Assembly (NCBI RefSeq): GCF_025452095.1
Contig: NZ_CP104877.1
Span: forward strand, 2,046,001 to 2,110,000
Direction of reading: 5' to 3'
Source of the DNA: Paenarthrobacter sp. JL.01a
Lineage (GTDB): Bacteria > Actinomycetota > Actinomycetes > Actinomycetales > Micrococcaceae
DNA length: 64,000 bases
Part shown: one piece after another, positions 10,569-38,700 of the stretch
Layout: each line of letters begins with the position of its first letter
Numbering within the stretch: the first letter of the stretch is position 1
Translations under genes and position numbers: made by a program
The notes under the pieces: generated by a model
Told to the model about the DNA's origin: nothing
Seen by the model: the letters and a program-made list of their open reading frames with translations, nothing else
Databases searched by the model: none

Positions 10569-11153
10569 CTACTTGGGGGTGCTCGTGCCTGCACGCCTTC
10601 GTGCGACTACCACGGATGCGGAGCCTGCGGCCAGGACGCTGACGCCCACCAGCCCCCATGCGACCAGCCCTGGTTCGGCTGCCGTATTTGCCGGTGCTGC
10701 CGCCGTGCCGGCGTCGGTGACGCTGGATACGGAAACGAGATTGGAACCGCCCTTTCCGTTGCCGTTGTTGCCGCGCCCGTGGTTGCCGTTGTTGACACCG
10801 ACCCGTGCGGAGCGAACGTTGCCCGAGGCGGCGCCGGTGGCAACGATCTGGTATTGGCCGGCGTTATCGAAGGTGATGCTGGTGGATATCGCACCCTTGC
10901 TGTCTGCCACAACGCTGAAGTTGGCTGGAGCGCTGCCCTTCGGGCGTCCCTTCTTCTCGAAGGTGATGTTGACGGTCTCGCCCGGGAAGTATCCGGTGCC
11001 GGAAAAGGTGATGGATTCACCCCGGTCAATGTTGCCGTCGGAAACGGTTCCTTGCTCGTTGCCCGGTGCGGGATAGGTGCTGGCCACGGCCGGCATAACG
11101 CCAGCGAAAACAACAACTCCCGAAAGCATTAGTGCTGCGATGGTCTTTTTCAT
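10569..11153 (-). CDS. Small secreted or cell-wall surface protein with C-terminal anchor
   Basis: 194 aa. MKKTIAALMLSGVVVFAGVMPAVAS is a signal peptide. The mature part has an Ig-like beta domain (RGESITFSGTGYFPGETVNITFEKKG... SFTFDNAGQYQIV-like), a Gly/Asn-rich linker (NNGNHGRGNNGNGKGG) and a C-terminal hydrophobic helix (GLVAWGLVGVSVLAAGSASVVVARRR) followed by a basic tail, i.e. a cell-wall/membrane anchor layout. No LPxTG is visible before the helix, so sortase attachment is not supported. Function unknown. A long AT-richer leader and promoter region lies upstream, and a hairpin follows the stop. Confidence 0.8.
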   Translation of the reverse strand: MKKTIAALMLSGVVVFAGVMPAVASTYPAPGNEQGTVSDGNIDRGESITFSGTGYFPGETVNITFEKKGRPKGSAPANFSVVADSKGAISTSITFDNAGQYQIVATGAASGNVRSARVGVNNGNHGRGNNGNGKGGSNLVSVSSVTDAGTAAAPANTAAEPGLVAWGLVGVSVLAAGSASVVVARRRAGTSTPK

Positions 11154-18538: not shown

Positions 18539-18952
18539 CTAGTCGGATTCGGTGCGCTTCAGTGCCGCCCAGGCCTGGAATCCGCCCACGAGGTCCGTCG
18601 CATGGGGCAGCCCCAGCCGTTGCAGGGTGTGCGCGGCAAGGCTGGAACTGTAGCCCTCGTTGCAGACGATCACGATCCGCCGGGATGCGTCGCCGGCGGC
18701 TGGGATGCGGTGGGCGCTGGAGGGGTCAAGCCGCCATTCGAGAACGTTCCGGTCGATGATGACGGCTCCGGGAAGCTCACCGTCGCGGTCCCGTTGCTCC
18801 ACTGGCCGTGTGTCGACAACCAGGGCACCGCCTTCCATCTCCCGTTCCAGGTCTGCCGGTTGAACACGCTGCAGCCCGCTGCGGCTCTCAGCCAGCAGTT
18901 GGTCGATCGTCAGGAACCCAGGGTCACCATCGGTGCTGTCCCGCTGCGTCAT
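18539..18952 (-). CDS. Single-domain rhodanese, divergent from formate dehydrogenase
   Basis: 137 aa from ATG 18952 (ribosome site AGGGAGGA). One rhodanese domain: VVDTRPVEQRDRDGELPGAVIIDRNVLEW... RIVIVCNEGYSSSLAAHTLQRLGL...DLVGGFQAWAAL. The catalytic Cys begins the loop CNEGYSS, a six-residue active-site loop expected to carry a persulfide. Its position, divergent from fdhABC and near selDAB, makes it a candidate sulfur or selenium carrier for the molybdenum cofactor or for selenophosphate synthesis; this is inference from context. A simple detoxifying role is the alternative. Confidence 0.85.
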   Translation of the reverse strand: MTQRDSTDGDPGFLTIDQLLAESRSGLQRVQPADLEREMEGGALVVDTRPVEQRDRDGELPGAVIIDRNVLEWRLDPSSAHRIPAAGDASRRIVIVCNEGYSSSLAAHTLQRLGLPHATDLVGGFQAWAALKRTESD

Positions 18953-19176
18953 GATGTTCCTCCCTATGGCTGCCGGAGCGTCGCTCCTTCCACCATTAAA
19001 CGAAAAAACTGCGTGTAGCTGTGGGTACTGCCGGAGGAGCGGCGACTTGGCGCCTGTCACCCTAATGGAAGCCGACGACGGCGGCCGCGCACCCGCCGTC
19101 GTCCGTCCGCGACCGCTATGGCGACACGAACCAGTGGTCCTGTTGCTGCCGCAGTGGTTTGGGTTATGCTCCACAA

Positions 19177-22100
19177 ATGGCGCCGCGAAGTTTTCTTCAA
19201 TGGCCGGTCGTCCGTCAGTTGAGTACGGGCGACCTCTTTGGCCGTGGACCGGCGGTGACGTCGGCCAAGACCAAGGCGATAACCCCCCGGACAGCTACTG
19301 CCGACCGCGTGGTGCAAAGCATCTGTCCGTATTGCGCCGTCGGGTGTGGACAGCGCGTGTACGTCAAAGACGAGAAAGTCATCCAGATTGAAGGCGATCC
19401 GGATTCGCCGATTTCCCGCGGCCGACTGTGTCCCAAAGGCTCAGCCAGTGAACAACTGGTCAACTCTCCCGGTCGCCAGACCAGGGTGCTCTACCGTGCA
19501 CCGAAGTCCAGCGAGTGGGAGCACCTGGACCTCGATACCGCCGTCGAAATGATCGCAGACAGGTTCATCGAGACACGCCGCCGGACGTGGCAACAACACG
19601 ATGACCAAGGCCGGCTGCTGCGCCGAACCATGGGCATAGCTTCGCTGGGCGGCGCGACCTTGGACAACGAGGAAAACTACCTCATCAAGAAGCTGTTCAC
19701 GGCTGCGGGGGCGGTGCAGGTCGAGAACCAGGCCCGCATATGACACTCCGCCACGGTTCCCAGTTTGGGAGCCTCATTTGGACGCGGCGGTGCTACGCAA
19801 TCGCTGCAGGACATGGCCAACGCTGACTGCATCGTTATCCAGGGTTCCAATATGGCCGAGTGCCATCCTGTCGGCTACCAGTGGGTGGCGGAGGCCAAGG
19901 CCCGTGGCGCCAAGGTCATCCACGTTGATCCAAGGTTTACGCGGACTTCCGCGGTCTCGGACAAGCACATTCCCATCCGGGCAGGCTCCGATGTTGTGCT
20001 CCTGGGCGCCCTGATCAACTACGTAATCTCCAACGACCTCTGGTTCAAGGAGTACGTCAGCGCCTACACCAATGCCGCCACGTTGGTGCACCACGATTAC
20101 CGCGACGCCGAGGATCTCGGCGGGTTGTTCTCGGGCTTCGATCCCGAGAGGGGCGCGTACGACACGTCCTCGTGGTCCTATTCCGAACGGGGCGAGGGCA
20201 CCATCGACGAACCGGGTCCCGGTTCCGAGCACGGCGCCGATGCTACCGCCCGGGCCGCCGGTCACGCCTACGGCAGTGGCGGCCCGCCCTTGGAGCACGC
20301 AGAGGTTGAGCGTGATGACACCCTGCAGGATCCGCGGACGGTCTTCCAGATCGTGAAGCGGCACTATACCCGGTACACGGCCGACATGGTGCAGGACATG
20401 TGCGGCATCAGCGTTGCGGACTTCGAGTACTTGGCCCGCGCCATCACGGAAAACTCGGGACGCGACCGGACCACGTGCTTCGCCTATGCCGTCGGTTGGA
20501 CACAGCATTCCCTGGGAGCCCAGTTCATCCGTGCCGCCGCCATCCTGCAACTGCTGCTGGGCAATATGGGGCGCCCCGGCGGTGGGATCATGGCCCTGCG
20601 TGGACATGCCAGCATCCAGGGCTCCACGGACATCCCCACCCTGTTCAACCTGCTTCCCGGTTATCTGCCAATGCCCAGTGCAGGCCGTCACGACACCCTC
20701 GATGAATATCTGGCAACCATCGGCTCGAAACAACAGAAGGGCTACTGGGCCAACGCGGACGCCTACACCATCAGCCTGCTCAAAGCGTGGTGGGGAGAGG
20801 CCGCGAACGCTGATAACGACTGGGCCTACGATTACCTGCCCCGGCTGACCGGAGCACACGGAACCTACGAGACCGTGATGGGCATGCTCGAGGACGAAGT
20901 GGAAGGCTACTTCGTGCTTGGACAGAATCCCGCAGTTGGCTCTGCCCATGGCCGGATGCAACGCCTGGCCATGGCGCATCTGAAGTGGATGGTGGTTCGA
21001 GACCTGAACCTCATTGAGTCGGCGACCTGGTGGAAGGACAGCCCCGAGATCGAATCCGGGGAGCTGCGGACCGAGGACATCGAAACAGAGGTGTTCTTCC
21101 TCCCGGCAGCAACACATGTGGAGAAGGCCGGGTCCTTCACGCAGACCCAGCGGCTGCTTCAGTGGCGGCACCAGGCCGTGGCGCCGCCAGGGGAGTGCCA
21201 AAGTGAGCTTCAGTTCTTCTTCGAGCTTGGCCAGCGGATCCGGGAAAAGCTTGCAGGATCCGACGACGAACGCGACCGGCCGCTGCTTGACCTCACCTGG
21301 GACTATTCCACGGACGAACACGGCGAACCGGACGCGGAGGCAGTACTGGCCGAGATCAACGGCCGCCACCTTGAGGGGCCCGAGGCCGGGAAGCCACTCT
21401 CCGCCTACACCGAACTTCGTGCCGACGGTTCTACGGCGGCAGGCTGCTGGATCTACACCGGCGTATACGCTGACGGCGTCAACCATGCCGCCAACCGCAA
21501 ACCGGGCCAAGAGCAGGGTCCCGCTGCCCCGGAATGGGGTTGGGCCTGGCCGGCGAACCGCAGGATCCTCTACAACCGGGCTTCGGCCGACCCTGCCGGT
21601 AAACCATGGAGCGAACGGAAGAAATACGTCTGGTGGGATCAGGAGCAGGGCAAATGGATCGGCGAGGACGTGCCCGACTTCCCGGTGGACCGTGCGCCGG
21701 GCAGCCATCCTGATCCTTCCGTCGGTGGCGCTGCAGCATTGAGCGGGGACGATCCCTTCATCATGCAGGCCGACGGCAAGGGCTGGCTGTTCGCGCCCAA
21801 GGGCCTCTTGGACGGCCCTCTGCCCACCCACTACGAGGCCCAGGAATCGCCCGTGGCCAATGCGCTCTACCCGCAGCAGCAAAACCCGGCCCGGCTGGTC
21901 TTCCCCCGCGCGGACAACCCGACTGCGCCGAGCGCCGGAACCAGTGGCGCGGACGTCTACCCTTACGTGTTCACGACGTACCGGCTTACCGAGCACCACA
22001 CGGCGGGCGGAATGAGCCGGTGGCTGCCGTACCTGTCCGAACTGCAGCCGGAAATGTTCTGCGAGGTCTCACCCGAATTGGCAGCTGAACGGGGACTTGA

Positions 22101-22497
22101 GCCTTACGGCTGGGCCACGATCATTTCGCCACGCTCCGCGATCGAGGCGAAGGTGCTGGTCACCGACCGGATGGCACCGTTGAAAGTCGGCGGCCATACC
22201 GTGCACCAGATCGGGCTGCCCTATCACTGGGGTGTCGGCAACAACGCCGTCGTCAGCGGTGACGCGGCCAATGACCTCCTTGGTGTGACCCTGGATCCCA
22301 ACGTCCAGATCCAGGAATCGAAGGTCGCTTCCTGCGACATCCGCCCGGGCCGCCGGCCACGTGGAGAGGAATTACTTGCCCTTGTTGCCGAGTATCGGGA
22401 GCGGGCCGGGGTGACCGTTGAGACCGGCAACGCAGCCGTCACAGCCCCGGCTGCCGAAGGCGTTGACCCTGCTACCGACCCGAAGTTGGAGGACTGA
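19177..22497 (+). CDS. fdhA: Formate dehydrogenase alpha subunit, selenocysteine-containing (UGA read-through)
   Basis: 1106 aa when the in-frame TGA at 19741-19743 is read as selenocysteine (residue 189). It oxidises formate to CO2 at a Mo/W-bis-MGD centre. N-terminal [4Fe-4S] site: SICPYCAVGCG... GRLCPKG. The Sec context is NQARI-U-HSATVPSLGASFGRGG, matching the family's ENQAR-x-U-H motif; frames on both sides align without a gap, and a SECIS-like hairpin follows. The C-terminus has the MGD-binding domain (TYRLTEHHTAGGMSRWLP... GLPYHWGVGNN). No twin-arginine signal is present, unlike E. coli FdnG, so it should face the cytoplasm. Start ATG 19177 is favoured over 19159 because MAPRSFLQWPVVRQL is the conserved-looking beginning. 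fdhB starts immediately after the stop. Confidence 0.93.
19755..19773 (+). promoter_or_regulatory. Bacterial SECIS-like hairpin after the fdhA UGA
   Basis: Starting 11 bases after the UGA, GGTTCCC (19755-19761) pairs with GGGAGCC (19767-19773) around the 5-base loop AGTTT. Seven base pairs, one G-U. The loop contains a GU pair near its start and lies ~19 bases from the UGA, within the distance known for E. coli fdhF SECIS elements, which bind the SelB C-terminal domain. Identified by eye only. Confidence 0.75.
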
Positions 22498-23508
22498 ATG
22501 GGCCAGTTGTCCGGACCGACCGACCCCACCACCGATGCCCACTGGGAGCACAACCATCCGCGCAAGGGGTTCTTCACCGATACCTCGATTTGCATCGGCT
22601 GCAAGGCCTGTGAAGTCGCTTGCAAGGAGTGGAACCACAATCCGCAGGACGGAAACCTAGAGCTGCTCGGTTCGTCCTATGACAACACTGGATCTCTCGG
22701 TGCCAGCACCTGGCGGCACGTCGCCTTCATCGAGCAGGGCCAGGAGCGAATCGTCGAAGCGCGGAATTCAGGCCGCGCGCTGGTCAACCTGGGGATGCCG
22801 CGCATCGGGCCTCCGACGCCAGTGGCGCCTGAAGACAGCGACCTCGCCGAGGCCGACACCACCCCGCCGGACACAGCAGATTTCCGATGGCTGATGTCCT
22901 CCGATGTGTGCAAGCACTGCACGCACGCCGGTTGCCTCGACGTCTGCCCCACCGGAGCTCTTTTCCGTACCGAATTCGGAACCGTGGTGGTACAGGACGA
23001 CGTCTGCAACGGCTGCGGAACCTGCGTGGCGGGGTGCCCTTTCGGAGTCATCGAGCGCCGAAGCGACGGCACGGTCAAAGTGGCCACAAGCAGGAATGAC
23101 CGGCACGACGAACATCCCGCGATACCGAATGTTGGAATCGCCCAGAAGTGCACCCTCTGTTACGACCGGCTGGTCGACGACGAGACGCCCGCGTGCGCAA
23201 AGGCCTGCCCGACGACGTCGATCAAGTTCGGCGACCACGACGACATGGTGGAGACGGGAAAGGTTCGCGTTGCCGAGCTGCACGCCAAAGGCCTGACGGA
23301 AGCCAGGCTGTATGGTGCGAACGAAAACGACGGGGTCGGCGGAACAGGATCGGTCTTCCTGCTGCTGGACGAACCTGAAGTCTATGGACTTCCGCCGGAC
23401 CCCCGGGTGCCGACAGCCGACCTGCCGAAAATGTACCGCAGGGCCGGAATGGCTGTAGCGGGTATGGCCGCGGCGGCTGCGCTGGCTTTCCTGGGAGGAC
23501 GCGCGTGA
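22498..23508 (+). CDS. fdhB: Formate dehydrogenase iron-sulfur (beta) subunit
   Basis: 336 aa; starts at the base after the fdhA stop. Four ferredoxin-type Cys clusters are visible: CIGCKACEVACKEW, CKHCTHAGCLDVCP, CNGCGTCVAGCP and CTLCYDRLVDDETPACAKACP, enough for four [4Fe-4S] centres that pass electrons from FdhA to the membrane subunit. A hydrophobic C-terminal segment (AGMAVAGMAAAAALAFLGG) could anchor it to the membrane as in FdnH. It overlaps the fdhC start by 4 bases. No signal peptide, matching a cytoplasm-facing enzyme. Confidence 0.93.
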   Translation: MGQLSGPTDPTTDAHWEHNHPRKGFFTDTSICIGCKACEVACKEWNHNPQDGNLELLGSSYDNTGSLGASTWRHVAFIEQGQERIVEARNSGRALVNLGMPRIGPPTPVAPEDSDLAEADTTPPDTADFRWLMSSDVCKHCTHAGCLDVCPTGALFRTEFGTVVVQDDVCNGCGTCVAGCPFGVIERRSDGTVKVATSRNDRHDEHPAIPNVGIAQKCTLCYDRLVDDETPACAKACPTTSIKFGDHDDMVETGKVRVAELHAKGLTEARLYGANENDGVGGTGSVFLLLDEPEVYGLPPDPRVPTADLPKMYRRAGMAVAGMAAAAALAFLGGRA

Positions 23509-24596
23509 CGCTCTCGGAGTTCGATAATGTGCGGCCGGCTGAGCCAGTCCGCCTTCGGCGACCGGACGGCATAGCAGGCACTCGCCGCCGCCGGGACGCA
23601 GGGGACGGCTCACGGGAAATGCCCATGGTTCCCGAAGCAGAGTTCGGCTCCTACTATGGCCGCCCCGTGGTCAAGCCGGCGCCTTGGGGTGAGGATGTTG
23701 CGCTCTATCTGTTCCTTGGCGGCGTCGCAGCTGGTTCGGCACTGCTTGGCCTCGGTGGGCAATTGACGGGACGCCCGACGCTGCGACGGAATGCGCGGTT
23801 GGGTTCCTTGGCAGCAGTGAGCGTGGGCGCAGTGGCGCTGGTGAGGGACCTGGGCAGGCCCGAGCGCTTCCTGAACATGCTGCGGACCTTCAAAGTGACC
23901 TCGCCGATGAGCGTTGGTTCCTGGATCCTCAGCGCGTTCAGCGCCGGAACGGCAGTCACGGCAGTGGCGGAGCTTGACCGGATGACGGGGTCAAAGCTGC
24001 CATTGGGTCCGTTGCGGAAGGTGCTGCAGGCAGTCGAGGGACCTGCCGGAATTGAGGCAGCAGTGTTTGCAGGTCCGTTGGCGGCGTACACGGCCGTCCT
24101 GCTGGGGGACACCGCCACACCTACGTGGAACGCCGCGCACGAGGAATTGCCGTTTGTCTTCGTGAGTTCGGCCTGCCTTGCCTCGGCTGGACTTGCCATG
24201 GTCACCACACCAGTACACGAGGCAGGTCCTGCCCGGAAACTCGCCGTACTGGGTGTACTGGGTGATGTGGCGGCAATGAAGGTGATGGAACGCCGGATGG
24301 ACCCGGTGGCTGCGGAGCCACTGCACCAGGGCAAAGCCGGGACCATGCTCAGATGGAGCGAGCGGCTGGCGGTTGCCGGGGGCCTTGGCGCATTGCTGGC
24401 AGGTCGCAACCGCGCGGTCGCGGCGGCTTCGGGGCTCGCGTTGCTGGCTGCCTCGGCCCTCACACGGTTCGGGGTATTCGAGGCCGGCATGGCCTCGGCA
24501 CGGGATCCGCGCTACACGATCGAACCTCAGAAGAAGCGGCTGGCTGCCCGCCGTGCTGCCGGCGTCACCAACGACGCCATCACTACCGGCAGCTGA
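23505..24596 (+). CDS. fdhC: NrfD/PsrC-type membrane subunit of formate dehydrogenase
   Basis: 363 aa starting at a GTG overlapping the fdhB stop. After a ~60-residue polar N-terminus (with SYYGRPVVKPAPWG) there are about eight hydrophobic helices, including LYLFLGGVAAGSALLGLGGQL and LVRDLGRPERFLNMLRTFKVTSPMSVGSWIL, the NrfD signature area. NrfD proteins bind quinone without heme, so electrons from formate would enter the menaquinone pool here. This differs from the cytochrome b gamma subunit of E. coli Fdn/Fdo. It converges on selD with 14 bases between stops. Confidence 0.85.
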   Translation: MTLSEFDNVRPAEPVRLRRPDGIAGTRRRRDAGDGSREMPMVPEAEFGSYYGRPVVKPAPWGEDVALYLFLGGVAAGSALLGLGGQLTGRPTLRRNARLGSLAAVSVGAVALVRDLGRPERFLNMLRTFKVTSPMSVGSWILSAFSAGTAVTAVAELDRMTGSKLPLGPLRKVLQAVEGPAGIEAAVFAGPLAAYTAVLLGDTATPTWNAAHEELPFVFVSSACLASAGLAMVTTPVHEAGPARKLAVLGVLGDVAAMKVMERRMDPVAAEPLHQGKAGTMLRWSERLAVAGGLGALLAGRNRAVAAASGLALLAASALTRFGVFEAGMASARDPRYTIEPQKKRLAARRAAGVTNDAITTGS

Positions 24597-24610
24597 AACA
24601 GCCGTCCGCC

Positions 24611-25636
24611 CTAACGGACCTCGATTCCCTGACCGGCCGTGGTGTGGCCAATGACCGGATATCCCGGGAGTTCACCGACCACCAACAGGCCGCCTGAGGT
24701 CTGGGCATCGGCCAGCAACAGCAGATCGTCCTCGGTGATGCCGGCCGCCGTCGCCACATGCGGCCGCACCCAATCGAGGTTCCGGCGGGTTCCTCCGGAG
24801 ACAAAGCCGTCACGCAGTGCTTCCAAGGCGCCATCGAGCAGTGGTACGGCCTTGAGGTCGATCACCGCGCCAACTTCTGAGGCGCGGACCATTTTGTGCA
24901 GGTGGCCCAGGAGGCCGAAACCGGTCACGTCCGTGGCGGCCCGAACGCCTGCGGCCACTGCCGCTTCCGAAGCCTCGCGGTTCAGGCCCGCCATCGTCTC
25001 GACCGCCTCGGCGAAAACCTCACCGGTCTTTTTGTGCCGGTTGTTCAGGAGTCCGACGCCGAGCGGCTTGGTCAGCGTAATGGGCAGCCCCGGCTGCGCC
25101 GCGTCGTTACGGAGCAGCCTGTCGGGATGAGCGACGCCGGTCACGGCCATGCCGTACTTCGGCTCAGGATCGTCAATGGAATGCCCGCCCAGCACTGGAC
25201 ACCCCGCCTGGGAAGCGACACTCAGGCCCCCGCGGAGTACCTCGGTCATCAGTTCCATCGGCAGCACGCCCCGGGGCCAGCCGACCAGGTTGATCGCCGT
25301 GACGGGTCGGCCTCCCATGGCATAGATATCGGAGAGGGCATTGGCGCCTGCAATCCGGCCCCAGTCGAAAGCATCGTTGACCACCGGGGTGAAGAAGTCC
25401 GCAGTGGAGAGAACTGCCAGGTCCTCGCGCACCAGGACCGCTGCCGCGTCGTCGCCACTGTCCAGCCCGACCAGGACCTCTGCGCCCGGTTGGCCGATCA
25501 GGCCGCGAACCACATCTTCAAGTTCTCCTGGAGGGATCTTGCAGGCGCAGCCCCCACCGTGCGCGTACTCGGTCAGACGGATTGCAGTCTCCGTGCCACC
25601 AGCGGGTTCGGTGATTGTTGCCTGGGTCTCATTCAC
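24611..25636 (-). CDS. selD: Selenide, water dikinase (selenophosphate synthetase)
   Basis: 341 aa from a GTG at 25636. The glycine-rich N-terminus with active-site Cys is EYAHGGGCACKIPPGELEDV: C30 corresponds to catalytic C17 of E. coli SelD and K33 to its K20, so this is the Cys form, not a selenoprotein. The ATP/Mg-binding region DDAAAVLVREDLAVLSTADFFTPVV and AIR-synthase-like LGGHSIDDPEPKYGMAVTGV follow. It makes selenophosphate from selenide and ATP for SelA. It is divergent from tRNA-Sec/selA with 44 bases between the starts, so the sel genes probably share a promoter region. Confidence 0.94.
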   Translation of the reverse strand: MNETQATITEPAGGTETAIRLTEYAHGGGCACKIPPGELEDVVRGLIGQPGAEVLVGLDSGDDAAAVLVREDLAVLSTADFFTPVVNDAFDWGRIAGANALSDIYAMGGRPVTAINLVGWPRGVLPMELMTEVLRGGLSVASQAGCPVLGGHSIDDPEPKYGMAVTGVAHPDRLLRNDAAQPGLPITLTKPLGVGLLNNRHKKTGEVFAEAVETMAGLNREASEAAVAAGVRAATDVTGFGLLGHLHKMVRASEVGAVIDLKAVPLLDGALEALRDGFVSGGTRRNLDWVRPHVATAAGITEDDLLLLADAQTSGGLLVVGELPGYPVIGHTTAGQGIEVR

Positions 25637-25680
25637 CCGTTCAGCCTAACCCCCGAAAACAACCTGCTATATTGAGGCGC

Positions 25681-25775
25681 GGTGGCGTCCGGGTCCTGGT
25701 GGGCCCCCCGGTCTTCAAAACCGGTGAGGCCGAGCATCTCGGCCTGGCGGGTTCGATTCCCGTCCGCCACCGCCA
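25681..25775 (+). tRNA. selC: tRNA-Sec (anticodon TCA)
   Basis: A 95-base tRNA with a long variable arm. The acceptor stem GGTGGCG pairs with CGCCACC (25765-25771); discriminator G and an encoded CCA (25773-25775) follow. The anticodon arm CCGGT-CTTCAAA-ACCGG holds TCA at 25715-25717, which decodes UGA. The T arm contains the GTTCGATTCC core. The extended variable arm (GAGGCCGAGCATCTCGGCCT region) and the T-rich anticodon loop match bacterial selenocysteine tRNA. It lies just before selA on the same strand and is probably processed from a shared transcript. Confidence 0.93.
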
Positions 25776-25813
25776 GGCACCGGCGTGCAGATGCCGCGAG
25801 ACGAGGAGGCGCT

Positions 25814-27145
25814 GTGGACAACGTAGATCCCCGCCGGCTGATTCCCCGCACCAATGACCTCCTGGCCCTGCCGGCCGTCCTCGAAGCCCGTACACGAATG
25901 GGCGGACACGTCATCCGCGGACTCGTCCGGGACCTCCAGGACCAGGCCCGGCGCGGCGACCTCCACCCCGCCCAAATTGAACCGGCTCTCCTGGCAGCCG
26001 TCGCTGACCACAGGGCGACAAGCCTTCGCCCTGTCCTGAATGCCACGGGCGTTATCGTCCATACGAACCTTGGCCGCGCACCCTTGTCCGCTGATGCGGT
26101 CGACGCCGTTGTTGGCGCCAGCGGCTACGTCGACGTGGAGATCGATCTTGCCAGTGGCGGCCGTTCCCGCCGCGGGGCGGGCGCAAGGGCCGCGTTGCTG
26201 CATGCCTGCCCTGCAGCCGAGGACGCCTTGGTGGTCAACAACGGAGCGGCCGCGCTGGTCCTGGCCACCACAGCCCTCGCCTCGGGTCGGGAGGTGGTGG
26301 TGAGCCGTGGGGAATTTGTGGAGATCGGCGCAGGCTTCCGTCTGTCCGACCTGATCGAGTCCACCGGCTCAAGGCTTCGCGAGGTGGGCACTACGAACAG
26401 GACCCACCTGCTCGACTACCAGAAGGCCCTTGGCCCCGACACCGGTTGTGTCCTCAAAGTCCACCCGAGCAACTTCCGGGTAGAGGGCTTCACCTTGTCG
26501 GTGGCGCTCGAGGAGCTCAGTCCTGTGACCAAGGCAAGCGGCGTACCGCTCGTGGCCGACCTCGGCAGCGGGCTGCTCGCTCCCGACCCCTACCTGCCCG
26601 ACGAACCCGATGTTTCCTCGGCTCTGGCGGGAGGGGCCGACGTCGTCATCGCCAGCGGTGACAAACTGCTGGGCGGCCCCCAGGCCGGTTTGCTCTTGGG
26701 GCGCAAGGAGATCATCGAACGCTTGGCCCGCCACCCCCTGGCCCGTGCCGTGCGCGCGGATAAACTCGCCCTGGCTGCCCTTGAGGCGACTCTTGCGGGC
26801 GGACCGCCACCGGTCGTCCAGGCACTGCATGCCGACGTCGGCCAGTTGCGTAGACGCACGGACGAACTGGCAGAAGCACTCGGTCTACCAGTCGTAGCCC
26901 ACGACGGCCGGGTTGGCGGTGGGGGTGCTCCCGGTGTTCCCTTGCCCGGGTGGGCGCTGCAACTTCCCGAGGATCTCGCGGTTCTTTTACGCACCGGAGA
27001 TCCGGCTGTCCTGCCGCGTGTCCACGATGGCTCGTGCCTCATTGACCTTCGCTGCGTTCCTGCTGCGGATGACCACCGGATCCTCGCTGTGGTGCAGCAC
27101 GCGCTGGCGCTCCGGGCGGGACGCTTTGCCGCCGGGGCGGGCTAA
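25814..27145 (+). CDS. selA: L-seryl-tRNA(Sec) selenium transferase
   Basis: 443 aa from GTG 25814, chosen for the GAGGAGG at 25803-25809; the open frame reaches into the tRNA gene and is not used there. PLP enzyme that converts Ser-tRNA(Sec) to Sec-tRNA(Sec) using selenophosphate, as a decamer in E. coli. Marks: RPVLNATGVIVHTNLGRAPL (N-terminal substrate site), DALVVNNGAAALVLATTAL, and the PLP Lys in SGDKLLGGPQAGLLLG (K284, equivalent to K295 of E. coli). It ends 3 bases before the selB GTG, so the two are translationally coupled. Confidence 0.95.
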   Translation: MDNVDPRRLIPRTNDLLALPAVLEARTRMGGHVIRGLVRDLQDQARRGDLHPAQIEPALLAAVADHRATSLRPVLNATGVIVHTNLGRAPLSADAVDAVVGASGYVDVEIDLASGGRSRRGAGARAALLHACPAAEDALVVNNGAAALVLATTALASGREVVVSRGEFVEIGAGFRLSDLIESTGSRLREVGTTNRTHLLDYQKALGPDTGCVLKVHPSNFRVEGFTLSVALEELSPVTKASGVPLVADLGSGLLAPDPYLPDEPDVSSALAGGADVVIASGDKLLGGPQAGLLLGRKEIIERLARHPLARAVRADKLALAALEATLAGGPPPVVQALHADVGQLRRRTDELAEALGLPVVAHDGRVGGGGAPGVPLPGWALQLPEDLAVLLRTGDPAVLPRVHDGSCLIDLRCVPAADDHRILAVVQHALALRAGRFAAGAG

Positions 27146-27148
27146 GCA

Positions 27149-28945
27149 GTGCACGTCGTTGCCACCGCCGGGCACGTCGATTCGGGCAAAAGCACCTTAG
27201 TCCGCGCCCTCACCGGCATGGAGCCGGACCGCTGGGAAGAGGAACGCCGCCGTGGCCTGACCATTGACCTGGGCTATGCGTGGACCACTTTGCCGTCCGG
27301 ACAGGATGTGGCGTTTGTGGACGTGCCGGGTCACGAACGATTCCTGGGGAACATGCTTGCCGGCATCGGGCCGGCGCCTGTGGTCTGTTTCGTCGTTGCT
27401 GCCGACGAAGGCTGGCAGGCGCAGTCAAGCGACCACCGGGACGCAGTGGCCGCCCTGGGAATCGGGTACGGGGTGGTGGTCCTCAGCCGGGCGGACAGGG
27501 CATCGGGCCCGCGGATCGCAGCCGTGCTCGCACGGACCCGGACCGAGCTGGCGGGGACCGGTTTGCAGGACGCGCCTGCAGTAGCTTTGTCCGCCGTCGA
27601 CGGGGCAGGGCTGGAGGAGCTTCGTGCCACCTTGGACGATGTCCTCGCGCAGGTTCCTGCCCCGGCCATGACCGGGCGCGTTCGGTTGTGGGTGGACCGC
27701 TCGTTCACCATTACCGGCTCGGGAACGGTGGTGACTGGAACCCTGGCGGCAGGAACACTGAGCCAGGGGGAGCGGCTTGAGCTGCTCGGCCATGATGGTT
27801 CCCGGCCTGTCAAGGTACGTGGCCTGCAGAGCCGTGACGCGGCCTGCGCCTCGGTGGAGCCTGTCAGCCGGGTGGCGTTGAACCTTCGCGACGTCGCCGC
27901 TGCGGATGTCCGGCGTGGAGACGCCCTGGTTACTCCCGGCGCGTGGCCCACCACCGCAGTTCTCGGCATCAGGCGGACCACGGGAGTGGCCTATACGGAA
28001 GTGCCGGAGCAGCTCACGGTGCATGTCGGCACTGCGTCGGTGCCCGCACGCTTGCGTCCGTTCGGTGTTGAGCATGCCCGCCTCGTCCTCGACAGGAGCC
28101 TGCCCCTGGTTCCCGGAGACCGGTTGGTACTGCGGGACCCGGGAAGCCGCTCGGTGCTGGGCGGTGCGCTCGTCCTCGACGCCGATCCGCCTGCCCTGCG
28201 GCGACGCGGCGATGTCGCCCGCTGGGCGAAACGGCTTACGGGCATGGATCCCGGCGGCGACGTACTCGGCGAGGTTTCAGCCCGCGGCGCGGTCCACGTA
28301 GATCAGTTGCTCAAGCTTGGACTCCTGGCAGGGCCCGGCCCGGACGCTCCGGCCGGCGTTAGTGTCATCGAGGATTGGTGGGTACACGTGCCGGTCCTCG
28401 AGGCATGGCAGCATCGCTTGCACACTGCAGTCCATGATCTGCAGGAACGCGATCCCTTGGCCCCCGGTCTTTCCATGGGCGCTGCACAGGACCTGCTCAA
28501 GCTGCCCGACAGAAAGCTCCTTCCGCACGTCATCCGGGGGGCCGCCTTGGAACAGGATGGCGGCCATGTTCAGCTGCCGGGCAGCCACGGCAATCTTGGC
28601 CCCATCGAGCCGTCCATTGCCACGTTGGAGGGAAGGCTGAAAACTGAGGCATTCCGGGCCCCCGAAGCCGATGAGCTGGCAGTACTGGGACTCGGTGCCC
28701 GGGAACTCGCTGCTGCCGAACGCGCGGGTCGCGTACTGCGGCTGCGCGACGGGGTGGTGCTGCTGCCAACCGCGCCGGCCCTTGCAATGCGAACCCTCGC
28801 CAGCCTTGACCAGCCATTCACCACGAGCCAAGCACGACAGGCACTTAACACAACACGCCGGGTTGCGGTTCCGTTGCTGGAATATCTCGATTCCCGTGGC
28901 TGGACCAACCGCTTGGATGCCGGCCACCGGACAGTCGTGCGTTGA
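27149..28945 (+). CDS. selB: Selenocysteine-specific elongation factor SelB
   Basis: 598 aa from GTG 27149. It carries Sec-tRNA(Sec) to the ribosome at UGA codons marked by a SECIS. GTPase motifs: AGHVDSGKST (G1), LTIDLGYAW (switch), DVPGHERFLGNM (G3), and VVLSRADRA at the N-K-x-D position, where S-R-A-D is a tolerated variant. Translation-factor beta barrels follow (RSFTITGSGTVVTGTLAAGTL) and then four winged-helix repeats to the C-terminus (TTSQARQALNTTRRVAVPLLEYLDSRGWT), the SECIS-binding part. Slightly shorter than E. coli SelB (614 aa). Last gene of the tRNA-Sec-selA-selB unit. Confidence 0.95.
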   Translation: MHVVATAGHVDSGKSTLVRALTGMEPDRWEEERRRGLTIDLGYAWTTLPSGQDVAFVDVPGHERFLGNMLAGIGPAPVVCFVVAADEGWQAQSSDHRDAVAALGIGYGVVVLSRADRASGPRIAAVLARTRTELAGTGLQDAPAVALSAVDGAGLEELRATLDDVLAQVPAPAMTGRVRLWVDRSFTITGSGTVVTGTLAAGTLSQGERLELLGHDGSRPVKVRGLQSRDAACASVEPVSRVALNLRDVAAADVRRGDALVTPGAWPTTAVLGIRRTTGVAYTEVPEQLTVHVGTASVPARLRPFGVEHARLVLDRSLPLVPGDRLVLRDPGSRSVLGGALVLDADPPALRRRGDVARWAKRLTGMDPGGDVLGEVSARGAVHVDQLLKLGLLAGPGPDAPAGVSVIEDWWVHVPVLEAWQHRLHTAVHDLQERDPLAPGLSMGAAQDLLKLPDRKLLPHVIRGAALEQDGGHVQLPGSHGNLGPIEPSIATLEGRLKTEAFRAPEADELAVLGLGARELAAAERAGRVLRLRDGVVLLPTAPALAMRTLASLDQPFTTSQARQALNTTRRVAVPLLEYLDSRGWTNRLDAGHRTVVR

Positions 28946-37812: not shown

Positions 37813-38700
37813 TTAGTTCCTTTCTGCCGCGGTGGCCGACCATGCTGACCAGGACCCGACGTACAGTGCCGCTTCGATCCCCAGCGTGGCGAGGGTAAGG
37901 ACTTTGTGGGCGGCCAGGACGCCGGCGCCGCAATAAGTTCCGACGGCGGCTCCCGGAGTCAGTCCGGCCGCCTCGGCCTGCGCACGCAGCACCTCAGGGG
38001 GAAGCAGCAGCCCGTCCTCGTCCAAGGTGCTGCTGCTGGGAAGGCTGAGCGCTCCGGGAATGTGGGCTGGCGGGTCCCCGGGAGTCCCGACGAAATGTTC
38101 TCTTTCCCGGGCGTCAAGCAGGATGCCGCCGTGTGGAAAGGCCGCCGCTTCGTCGGTCGCGATGGTTGCAAGGTTGCCGCTCGCCGGGGACAGTCCGGCC
38201 TTCAGCGTTATTGATCCGGCCCCGGTGTCCGGTCGTTGTGTCGTGGTCGGCAAGCCCAGGCTCCGCCAATAGCCATAGCCACCGTCGAGGACCCTTACAT
38301 TCACCAGTCCAGCCCACTTCAGGACCCACCAGGCCCTGGCCGCCGACAGTCCGTGCCGGTTGTCGTAGACCACCACCGCCGAGTCATTGTTGATCCCGTA
38401 GCTGCGCAGGGCGCACTGCAGAGCACCTGCTGACGGAAGGGGGAGTGCCCCATCCACTGCGGACCTGTGCGGTCCAGCGTCCGCGAGCACCGTGGGCAGG
38501 TGGACGTAGTGTGCCCCCGGCAAGTGGCCGGCGTCGTATTCTGCTTCCGGTTGGGCGAAGCCGGGTCTGAACCGGATGTCCAGCAGGACCGGCGCCGCTC
38601 CTTCGGCGAGCTGACGGGCCAGTTCGGCCGCTTCGATGAAATGAGCATTGCGTAGTTCATCCAGCTCCGTGTCGGGTATGGATGTGGCCTCTGAGCTCAT
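37813..38700 (-). CDS. Two-domain rhodanese (thiosulfate/3-mercaptopyruvate sulfurtransferase)
   Basis: 295 aa, tandem rhodanese domains. The N-terminal inactive domain (VLLDIRFRPGFAQPEAEYDAGHLPGAHYVHLP... VVVYDNRHGLSAARAWWVLKWAG) has D in place of the Cys. The C-terminal domain carries the catalytic Cys in VGTYCGAGVLAAHKVL; loop CGAGVLA resembles mercaptopyruvate transferases (CGxGVTA) more than rhodanese (CRKGVT). It transfers sulfane sulfur to cyanide, thiols or other acceptors. Its start overlaps the stop of the DszA-like monooxygenase by 4 bases, tying sulfur handling to that oxygenase. Confidence 0.88.
   Translation of the reverse strand: MSSEATSIPDTELDELRNAHFIEAAELARQLAEGAAPVLLDIRFRPGFAQPEAEYDAGHLPGAHYVHLPTVLADAGPHRSAVDGALPLPSAGALQCALRSYGINNDSAVVVYDNRHGLSAARAWWVLKWAGLVNVRVLDGGYGYWRSLGLPTTTQRPDTGAGSITLKAGLSPASGNLATIATDEAAAFPHGGILLDAREREHFVGTPGDPPAHIPGALSLPSSSTLDEDGLLLPPEVLRAQAEAAGLTPGAAVGTYCGAGVLAAHKVLTLATLGIEAALYVGSWSAWSATAAERN

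Follow-up and report, generated by a model that had tools for sequence, protein, structure and literature searches.

The window analyzed here, a stretch of 64,000 nucleotides from contig NZ_CP104877.1 of Paenarthrobacter sp. JL.01a, very probably carries a mobile island for a selenocysteine (Sec)-containing formate dehydrogenase (FDH) and the decoding of its UGA codon. The island block at 19177-28945 (window coordinates are used) holds fdhA with an in-frame UGA, fdhB, fdhC, selD, tRNA-Sec (selC), selA and selB. Both the coordinates and the gene families assigned to it in a preliminary description of this DNA hold. As a Sec cluster, the island is of an ordinary and well-described kind. The new part is a divergent rhodanese, encoded beside fdhA, that follows the Sec trait, and inside the genus this link is statistically firm.

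The proposed working follows the established functions of the families. SelD would make selenophosphate, SelA would turn Ser-tRNA-Sec into Sec-tRNA-Sec, and SelB, acting on the selenocysteine insertion sequence (SECIS) hairpin, would decode the UGA of fdhA. FdhA, FdhB and the NrfD-type FdhC would together form a membrane-attached formate dehydrogenase that passes electrons to quinone. The rhodanese may bind reduced selenium in the form of a protein perselenide and hand selenium on to SelD. The features are as follows.

18539-18952, minus strand: single-domain rhodanese of 137 aa, divergent from fdhA; PF00581 at 50.6 bits (gathering score 22.2); catalytic Cys loop CNEGYSS
19143-19170, plus strand: promoter-like sequence of fdhA, -35 TTGCTG, 16 nt, -10 TATGCT, located 6 nt before the ATG
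19177-22497, plus strand: fdhA, selenocysteine formate dehydrogenase catalytic subunit; NF041513 at 1970 bits
19741-19743, plus strand: in-frame UGA, predicted Sec codon, in the context ARI-U-HSATV; aligned to the Sec of Fdh-N
19755-19773, plus strand: SECIS hairpin of 7 bp with loop AGUUU; stem 19755-19761 with 19767-19773
22498-23508, plus strand: fdhB, 4Fe-4S subunit with a C-terminal hydrophobic segment (judged by eye)
23505-24596, plus strand: fdhC, NrfD-type membrane subunit; PF03916 at 69.5 bits
24611-25636, minus strand: selD, selenophosphate synthetase, Cys type without UGA; TIGR00476 at 382.7 bits
25668-25673, plus strand: putative -10 box of selC, TATATT, separated by 7 nt from the first base of the tRNA
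25681-25775, plus strand: selC, tRNA-Sec with anticodon UCA; Rfam score 80.2 bits (gathering score 47)
25814-27145, plus strand: selA, selenocysteine synthase; TIGR00474 at 403.3 bits
27149-28945, plus strand: selB, Sec-specific elongation factor; TIGR00475 at 261.6 bits, with a SelB-wing_3 domain

SelD, SelA and SelB all exceed their NCBIfam cut-offs, and the gene set of the Sec decoding trait (selA, selB, selC and selD) is present in full. When read through the TGA, FdhA scores 1970.4 bits with the NF041513 model (“formate_DH_Act”, cut-off 1400) and covers positions 3-1067 of its 1067. The closest solved relative is the Escherichia coli formate dehydrogenase-N (Fdh-N; 1kqf, E 4e-204), whose ARVU-HGPTV aligns with ARIU-HSATV here; the FGRG motif is matched by FGRGG. 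The UGA lies at the catalytic Sec position and is followed by His, as in Sec-FDHs of the NF041513 type. FdhA, the 4Fe-4S subunit and the NrfD subunit occur together with passing Pfam domains, which is the composition of an NrfD-type membrane FDH. The two partner subunits fall below the more specific cut-offs of TIGR01582 (FdhB, 160 vs 334.7 bits) and TIGR03148 (FdhC, 25.8 vs 347.6 bits). Inspection of the FdhA N-terminus by eye noticed no twin-arginine motif, and the enzyme is for this reason predicted to face, probably, the cytoplasm.

The island had been called self-contained. This stands for the Sec-decoding set, which is complete and accompanied by a UGA-containing FDH, but not for the FDH accessory protein FdhD, whose gene (G000:C1:1042080) lies about 1 Mb from the island start at 2065177 and is also found in Sec-less genomes. 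The comparisons drew on 99 related genomes, including 61 of the genus, and on a full genus set of 206 genomes. FdhD is present in 80 of the 99 and in 60 of the 61, and 41 of the 42 Sec-less genomes of the genus encode it.

Clusters of this kind have been described previously. The available portion of PMC2830990 describes the cluster of Corynebacterium aurimucosum and calls its gene order highly conserved, and that of PMC7176365 reports that formate removal by such clusters of Actinomycetospora chiangmaiensis depended on selenite. Both resemble the window in that a Sec-FdhA is clustered with its partner subunits and with sel genes, although SelD is listed outside FDH1 in A. chiangmaiensis. Unlike the window, neither cluster is accompanied by a mention of a rhodanese in these portions of the two papers. 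The preliminary description had regarded such tight clustering as unusual. The comparison of synteny among relatives that it proposed found an identical gene order throughout the 19 Sec-positive members of the 61-genome sample, and close clustering is reported in parts of PMC2830990 and PMC5029168, the latter placing selD and fdhA close together or in one operon in most donors and recipients of the trait. The clustering is thus not unusual. A 2005 paper speaks for the earlier view, stating in its available text that selD rarely adjoins selA-selB (PMC1273633).

The rhodanese and the Sec trait

Within the 61-genome sample, tRNA-Sec, SelA and FdhA (NF041513) coincide exactly in 19 genomes. For this count tRNA-Sec matches below 60 bits were dropped; every one of the 99 genomes and 14 controls yields at least one match, and the weak ones were taken as other tRNAs. 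The rhodanese is found in 15 of these 19 Sec-positive genomes and in none of the 42 Sec-negative ones. Across the full genus set, SelA occurs in 43 of the 206 genomes; the rhodanese is encoded by 33 of the 43 and by none of the 163 that lack SelA (Fisher p 1e-29, with kinship ignored). Membership in the rhodanese subfamily was set at 181.9 bits or more, which kept 33 of the 34 genomes matched. Two weak matches (54-55 bits, 35% identity) were assigned to a different rhodanese and dropped, the one in the SelA-negative G167 (54 bits) and an additional one in G034 (55 bits).

After correction for kinship over 117 genomes, 10-11 of the 15 independent pairs show the rhodanese and the Sec trait going together, and in no pair do they go in opposite directions (p 0.001-0.002). 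The gene on the other side of the rhodanese, GDPD, served as a control. It occurs in 22/43 SelA-positive and 80/163 SelA-negative genomes, with about three pairs each way, and was rejected as a further Sec partner for want of association; its 102 matches include paralogues (43-50% identity).

Gene order in other genera points the same way. A contig scan with the rhodanese, which kept 80 of 153 related loci with spans of up to 10 kb on each side, located sel or fdh genes near the homologue in 11 of the 80. Seven of these belong to Arthrobacter, Paenarthrobacter or Pseudarthrobacter (some already among the 206 genomes), two to Nocardioides, one to Cellulomonas and one to a Marmoricola metagenome-assembled genome (MAG). 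In Nocardioides sp. zg-1230 (L289) and N. pinisoli (L308), the order rhodanese-selC-selA-selB runs along one strand, with selD and fdhABC on the other, and the stop codon of the rhodanese is located 10 nt before tRNA-Sec. This close spacing suggests that the four genes form an operon. Taken together, the co-occurrence and the gene order in other genera make it likely that the rhodanese is functionally tied to the Sec trait.

In rhodaneses, a cysteine of the active site carries sulfane sulfur. The most likely role of the present one, proposed from co-occurrence and gene order with somewhat less than even confidence, is that of a perselenide holder passing selenium to SelD. It may, on an equally tentative footing, represent an unrecognised actinobacterial selenium protein, a perselenide carrier dedicated to SelD, which tracks the Sec trait even where it is unlinked and would be co-transcribed with tRNA-Sec in some Nocardioides. 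A known relative in selenium metabolism is the tRNA 2-selenouridine synthase YbbB/SelU, which shares the rhodanese domain and belongs to a SelD-dependent pathway. YbbB/SelU combines its rhodanese with a further C-terminal domain, whereas the window protein, at 137 aa, consists of the rhodanese domain only and is not a SelU.

The route by which toxic selenide reaches selenophosphate synthetase is unsettled. As set out in the available part of PMC8538045 (citing Ogasawara et al. 2001, 2005), rhodanese and 3-mercaptopyruvate sulfurtransferase bind selenium and have been debated as proteins that deliver it for selenophosphate synthesis, with their physiological relevance called unclear. The link described here is genomic and concerns one specific actinobacterial rhodanese. 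The accessible portions of PMC5322559, PMC9312934, PMC13188914, PMC2432076, PMC4561486, PMC1794560 and PMC1273633 cover YedE, YedF, DUF3343, NifS-like fusions, Sec-containing rhodaneses and YbbB. No report of the window's rhodanese subfamily as Sec-linked was found in the portions of the openly licensed literature searched, and this search provides weak evidence that the rhodanese-Sec link is novel. As the rhodanese tracks the trait over 206 genomes of one genus, it offers a precise and cheap gene-deletion test of selenide delivery to SelD.

The rhodanese could instead serve the enzyme rather than selenium, by delivering sulfur to the molybdenum cofactor or to FdhD for FDH maturation. This is considered rather unlikely. 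FDH is a molybdenum cofactor enzyme, and the nearest NCBIfam profile to the protein is the rhodanese part of the MoeB type, matched at 55.8 bits against a cut-off of 449. Because all 19 Sec-positive genomes of the 61-genome sample carry this FDH, the selenium and FDH-sulfur roles are inseparable within it. However, FdhD is encoded across the genus regardless of Sec, unlike the rhodanese. Furthermore, the Nocardioides rhodanese stands in line with selC-selA-selB while fdhABC lie on the opposite strand, a gene order that favors the selenium role over the FDH-sulfur role.

It is also improbable that the rhodanese is associated with the trait simply by hitchhiking on the island through physical linkage. 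Islands have moved inside the genus, and in 19 of the 33 rhodanese-bearing genomes the gene does lie within 35 kb of selA. In the others it is more than 300 kb away on the same contig (8 genomes) or on another contig (6 genomes), and none of the 163 SelA-negative genomes retains it. Even without the 19 linked genomes, rhodanese and trait go together in 7-8 of 12 independent pairs, with no pair opposed (p 0.008-0.016). The lack of association of the neighboring GDPD, and the differing arrangements near sel genes in the two Nocardioides, the Cellulomonas and the Marmoricola MAG, likewise speak against linkage as the cause.

The reading of the rhodanese as a selenium protein tied to the Sec trait is met by several observations, besides the MoeB-type profile match, that weigh against it. 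The gene is missing from 10 of the 43 SelA-positive genomes of the genus (two of them <85% complete), and no rhodanese occurs in the 41.8 kb read around the island on plasmid pYA7-1a. Restricting the test to the 8 genomes with a distant (>300 kb) rhodanese on the same contig leaves a non-significant result, with agreement in 3-5 of 9 pairs and opposition in none. SelA was searched for in 24 named carrier genomes chosen from the 80 loci (L297 left out). It scored above the cut-off in 16, namely in 14 of the 18 without an adjoining cysteine dioxygenase-like gene and in 2 of the 6 with one. The remaining 8 of the 24 lack SelA above the cut-off, and carriers without SelA include N. islandensis, N. 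pocheonensis, N. guangzhouensis and Pengzhenrongella frigida. Beyond the genus, a cysteine dioxygenase-like gene adjoins 9 of the 80 homologue loci by tblastn; none was detected in the spans of the 50 best named loci, L261-L310 (tblastn, one query). The window rhodanese has GDPD and fdhA as neighbors and is not of the cysteine dioxygenase-linked type.

Co-occurrence at the level of the order (rhodanese in 7/13 Sec-positive and 1/25 Sec-negative genomes) was not used as support, because the homologues counted share 47-56% identity, with cysteine dioxygenase-linked and CRQGY-type relatives among them.

A few further rhodaneses were observed in the course of this work. Related proteins at L192 and L197 adjoin an apparent cysteine dioxygenase. 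In G076 (L082 9310-10661), selD is followed on its own strand, after about 70 bp, by a rhodanese of another type, with the loop CRQGYSS. L293, a contig assigned to a Bifidobacterium breve MAG, encodes a rhodanese near-identical to those of Acidimicrobiaceae/Ferrithrix MAGs (L295, L299) and is possibly mis-binned. The window contains a second rhodanese gene at 37813-38700, 19 kb downstream, which has two matched rhodanese stretches and adjoins a luciferase-like monooxygenase gene.

Distribution and probable transfer of the island

The proposal that the cluster is a transferable unit is borne out by its all-or-none presence, by the conflict between trees and by a plasmid, typed as conjugative, that carries the block in full. 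Comparison of the genomes shows that the island is gained and lost as a unit inside the genus and is also found on plasmids. On a 117-genome rpoB-rpoC (rpoBC) tree the Sec trait changes 16 times, with 15 changes forced by well-supported branches. This tree was built without the SelA-positive G185 and G210 (63% and 83% complete), and the 38 Sec-negative genomes added to it were chosen by handle number, not kinship. The rooted rpoBC tree was built without G013 and G027 (no rpoB match) and without G030 and G053 (fragmented).

In approximately unbiased (AU) tests, the island data reject the rpoBC clade G000+G034+G041 (p 6e-51), and so do the fdh half (p 3e-11) and the sel half (p 3e-7) taken separately. 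Conversely, the rpoBC data reject the island clade G002+G041 (p 3e-63). The two halves differ in certain placements: G002 and G041 are joined in the fdh half only, and G024 and G044 shift. As the halves disagree on these placements and the bootstraps of the fdh tree are not settled, recombination within the island is possible.

The plasmid evidence comes from a SelB search of 72,556 plasmid records, which gave 144 matches at E 1e-20, with one place covering at least 80% in 6. The whole block, including tRNA-Sec and the TGA in fdh, is present on plasmid pYA7-1a of Arthrobacter sp. YA7-1 (L259 11924-21797), which is 129,773 bp in length and typed as conjugative, MOBP, MPF_T. The same block is located on a Tsukamurella plasmid typed as non-mobilizable. 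Carriage on a plasmid typed as conjugative represents one route by which the Sec trait can spread. Placement of the island inside a Tn3 element of pYA7-1a was considered and rejected: the 36-bp terminal repeats (92% complementary) bound L259 21989-40024, leaving 191 bp between the end of selB and the repeats.

Transfer of the Sec trait into relatives has been reported, with Arthrobacter crystallopoietes and Arthrobacter sp. 162MFSha1.1 among the recipients listed in Table 2 of PMC5029168. In the available portions of PMC5029168 and PMC1794560, the published transfers rest on trees and distribution, whereas here an Arthrobacter plasmid typed as conjugative carries the whole island, and a tree conflict is found within one genus.

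Vertical descent with many losses and no transfer would be a quite improbable source of the patchy distribution. The 16 changes on the 117-genome tree may include losses, and the early-branching G024, G044 and G018 of the rooted rpoBC tree are Sec-positive. The downstream gene families F7 and F8 are common to 10 of the 19 genus loci, all ten of which fall in one rpoBC clade, while the other loci differ. Against this stand plasmid pYA7-1a (typed as conjugative) with its copy of the island and the strong conflict between the island and rpoBC trees, which is found in both island halves, with rpoB and rpoC as the only species markers.

Probable UGA recoding and the SECIS hairpin

An FdhA of the NF041513 family is encoded by 30 of the 99 related genomes (E 1e-100). 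The conserved Sec context ascribed to the in-frame TGA at 19741 is found in every one of them: the codon stands in the context ARI-TGA-HS in 30/30, and again in a second fdhA copy in G082. Two genomes, G064 (L090) and G069 (L086), have tRNA-Sec and SelA with no NF041513 FdhA at E 1e-100.

In bacterial SECIS elements, as a rule, the UGA is followed after a set, short spacing by a hairpin that has a G near the start of its apical loop. The 7-bp hairpin noted after the TGA complies with this rule in both loop and spacing. Its sequence is GGUUCCC-AGUUU-GGGAGCC, it starts 11 nt after the UGA, and the spacing from UGA to loop is 18 nt. Loci outside the genus mostly have the loop AGUCU or GGUCU. In the alignment, which holds 15 distinct sequences among 27, the stem is paired in 98.1% of cells, with two cells unpaired and four altered on both stem sides as compensatory changes. 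For the fraction of paired cells, the count of two-sided changes and the covariation score, none of 500 shuffles equalled the alignment, although two coarser counts were reached by 11/500 and 13/500 shuffles. The fold of the single sequence is mildly more stable than that of shuffles (z -1.76), with 12 of 200 shuffles folding equally well.

The expectation that automated calls would break fdhA was accurate in part. A naive open reading frame list does split the gene into two frames of 194 and 910 aa, but an NCBI model (NF041513) exists, and the pYA7-1a record annotates fdh as a single 3333-bp coding sequence through the UGA. The split frames are the one point in favor of fdhA being a pseudogene with the UGA as a genuine stop, a reading of negligible probability that was rejected on the identical position and conserved context of the UGA in all 30 FdhA-bearing genomes, the covarying SECIS, and the presence of the whole Sec machinery, which is missing wherever FdhA is missing in the genus sample.

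The island of G018 (L078) has a frameshift in fdhA at about 5020 and an extra base in the anticodon loop of its tRNA-Sec (10982-11077), with selA and selB open. This represents either a decaying island or a sequencing error.

Promoter-like sequences

A TAnnnT box ends 7 nt (6 nt in one case) before the first base of tRNA-Sec in 19/19 genus loci; these loci are related and hence not independent. Outside the genus, a TAnnnT lies 6-8 nt upstream of tRNA-Sec in 5 of 14 loci (13 genomes). By comparison, 30 other tRNA loci of this genome (the best 30 of 54 found, some inside tRNA clusters) show no such box at that distance, and its background is 0.7% of window positions. From the position of this box, tRNA-Sec is predicted to be transcribed without a 5′ leader, and a leaderless tRNA-Sec is regarded as possible. 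In the portions of the literature searched, nothing on point turned up for a leaderless bacterial tRNA-Sec. A motif common to the fdhA and rhodanese promoters was sought by eye, with no motif program run, and none was seen. The promoter-like sequence upstream of fdhA appears similar by eye in the 19 genus loci, and the fdhA mRNA is possibly leaderless as well.

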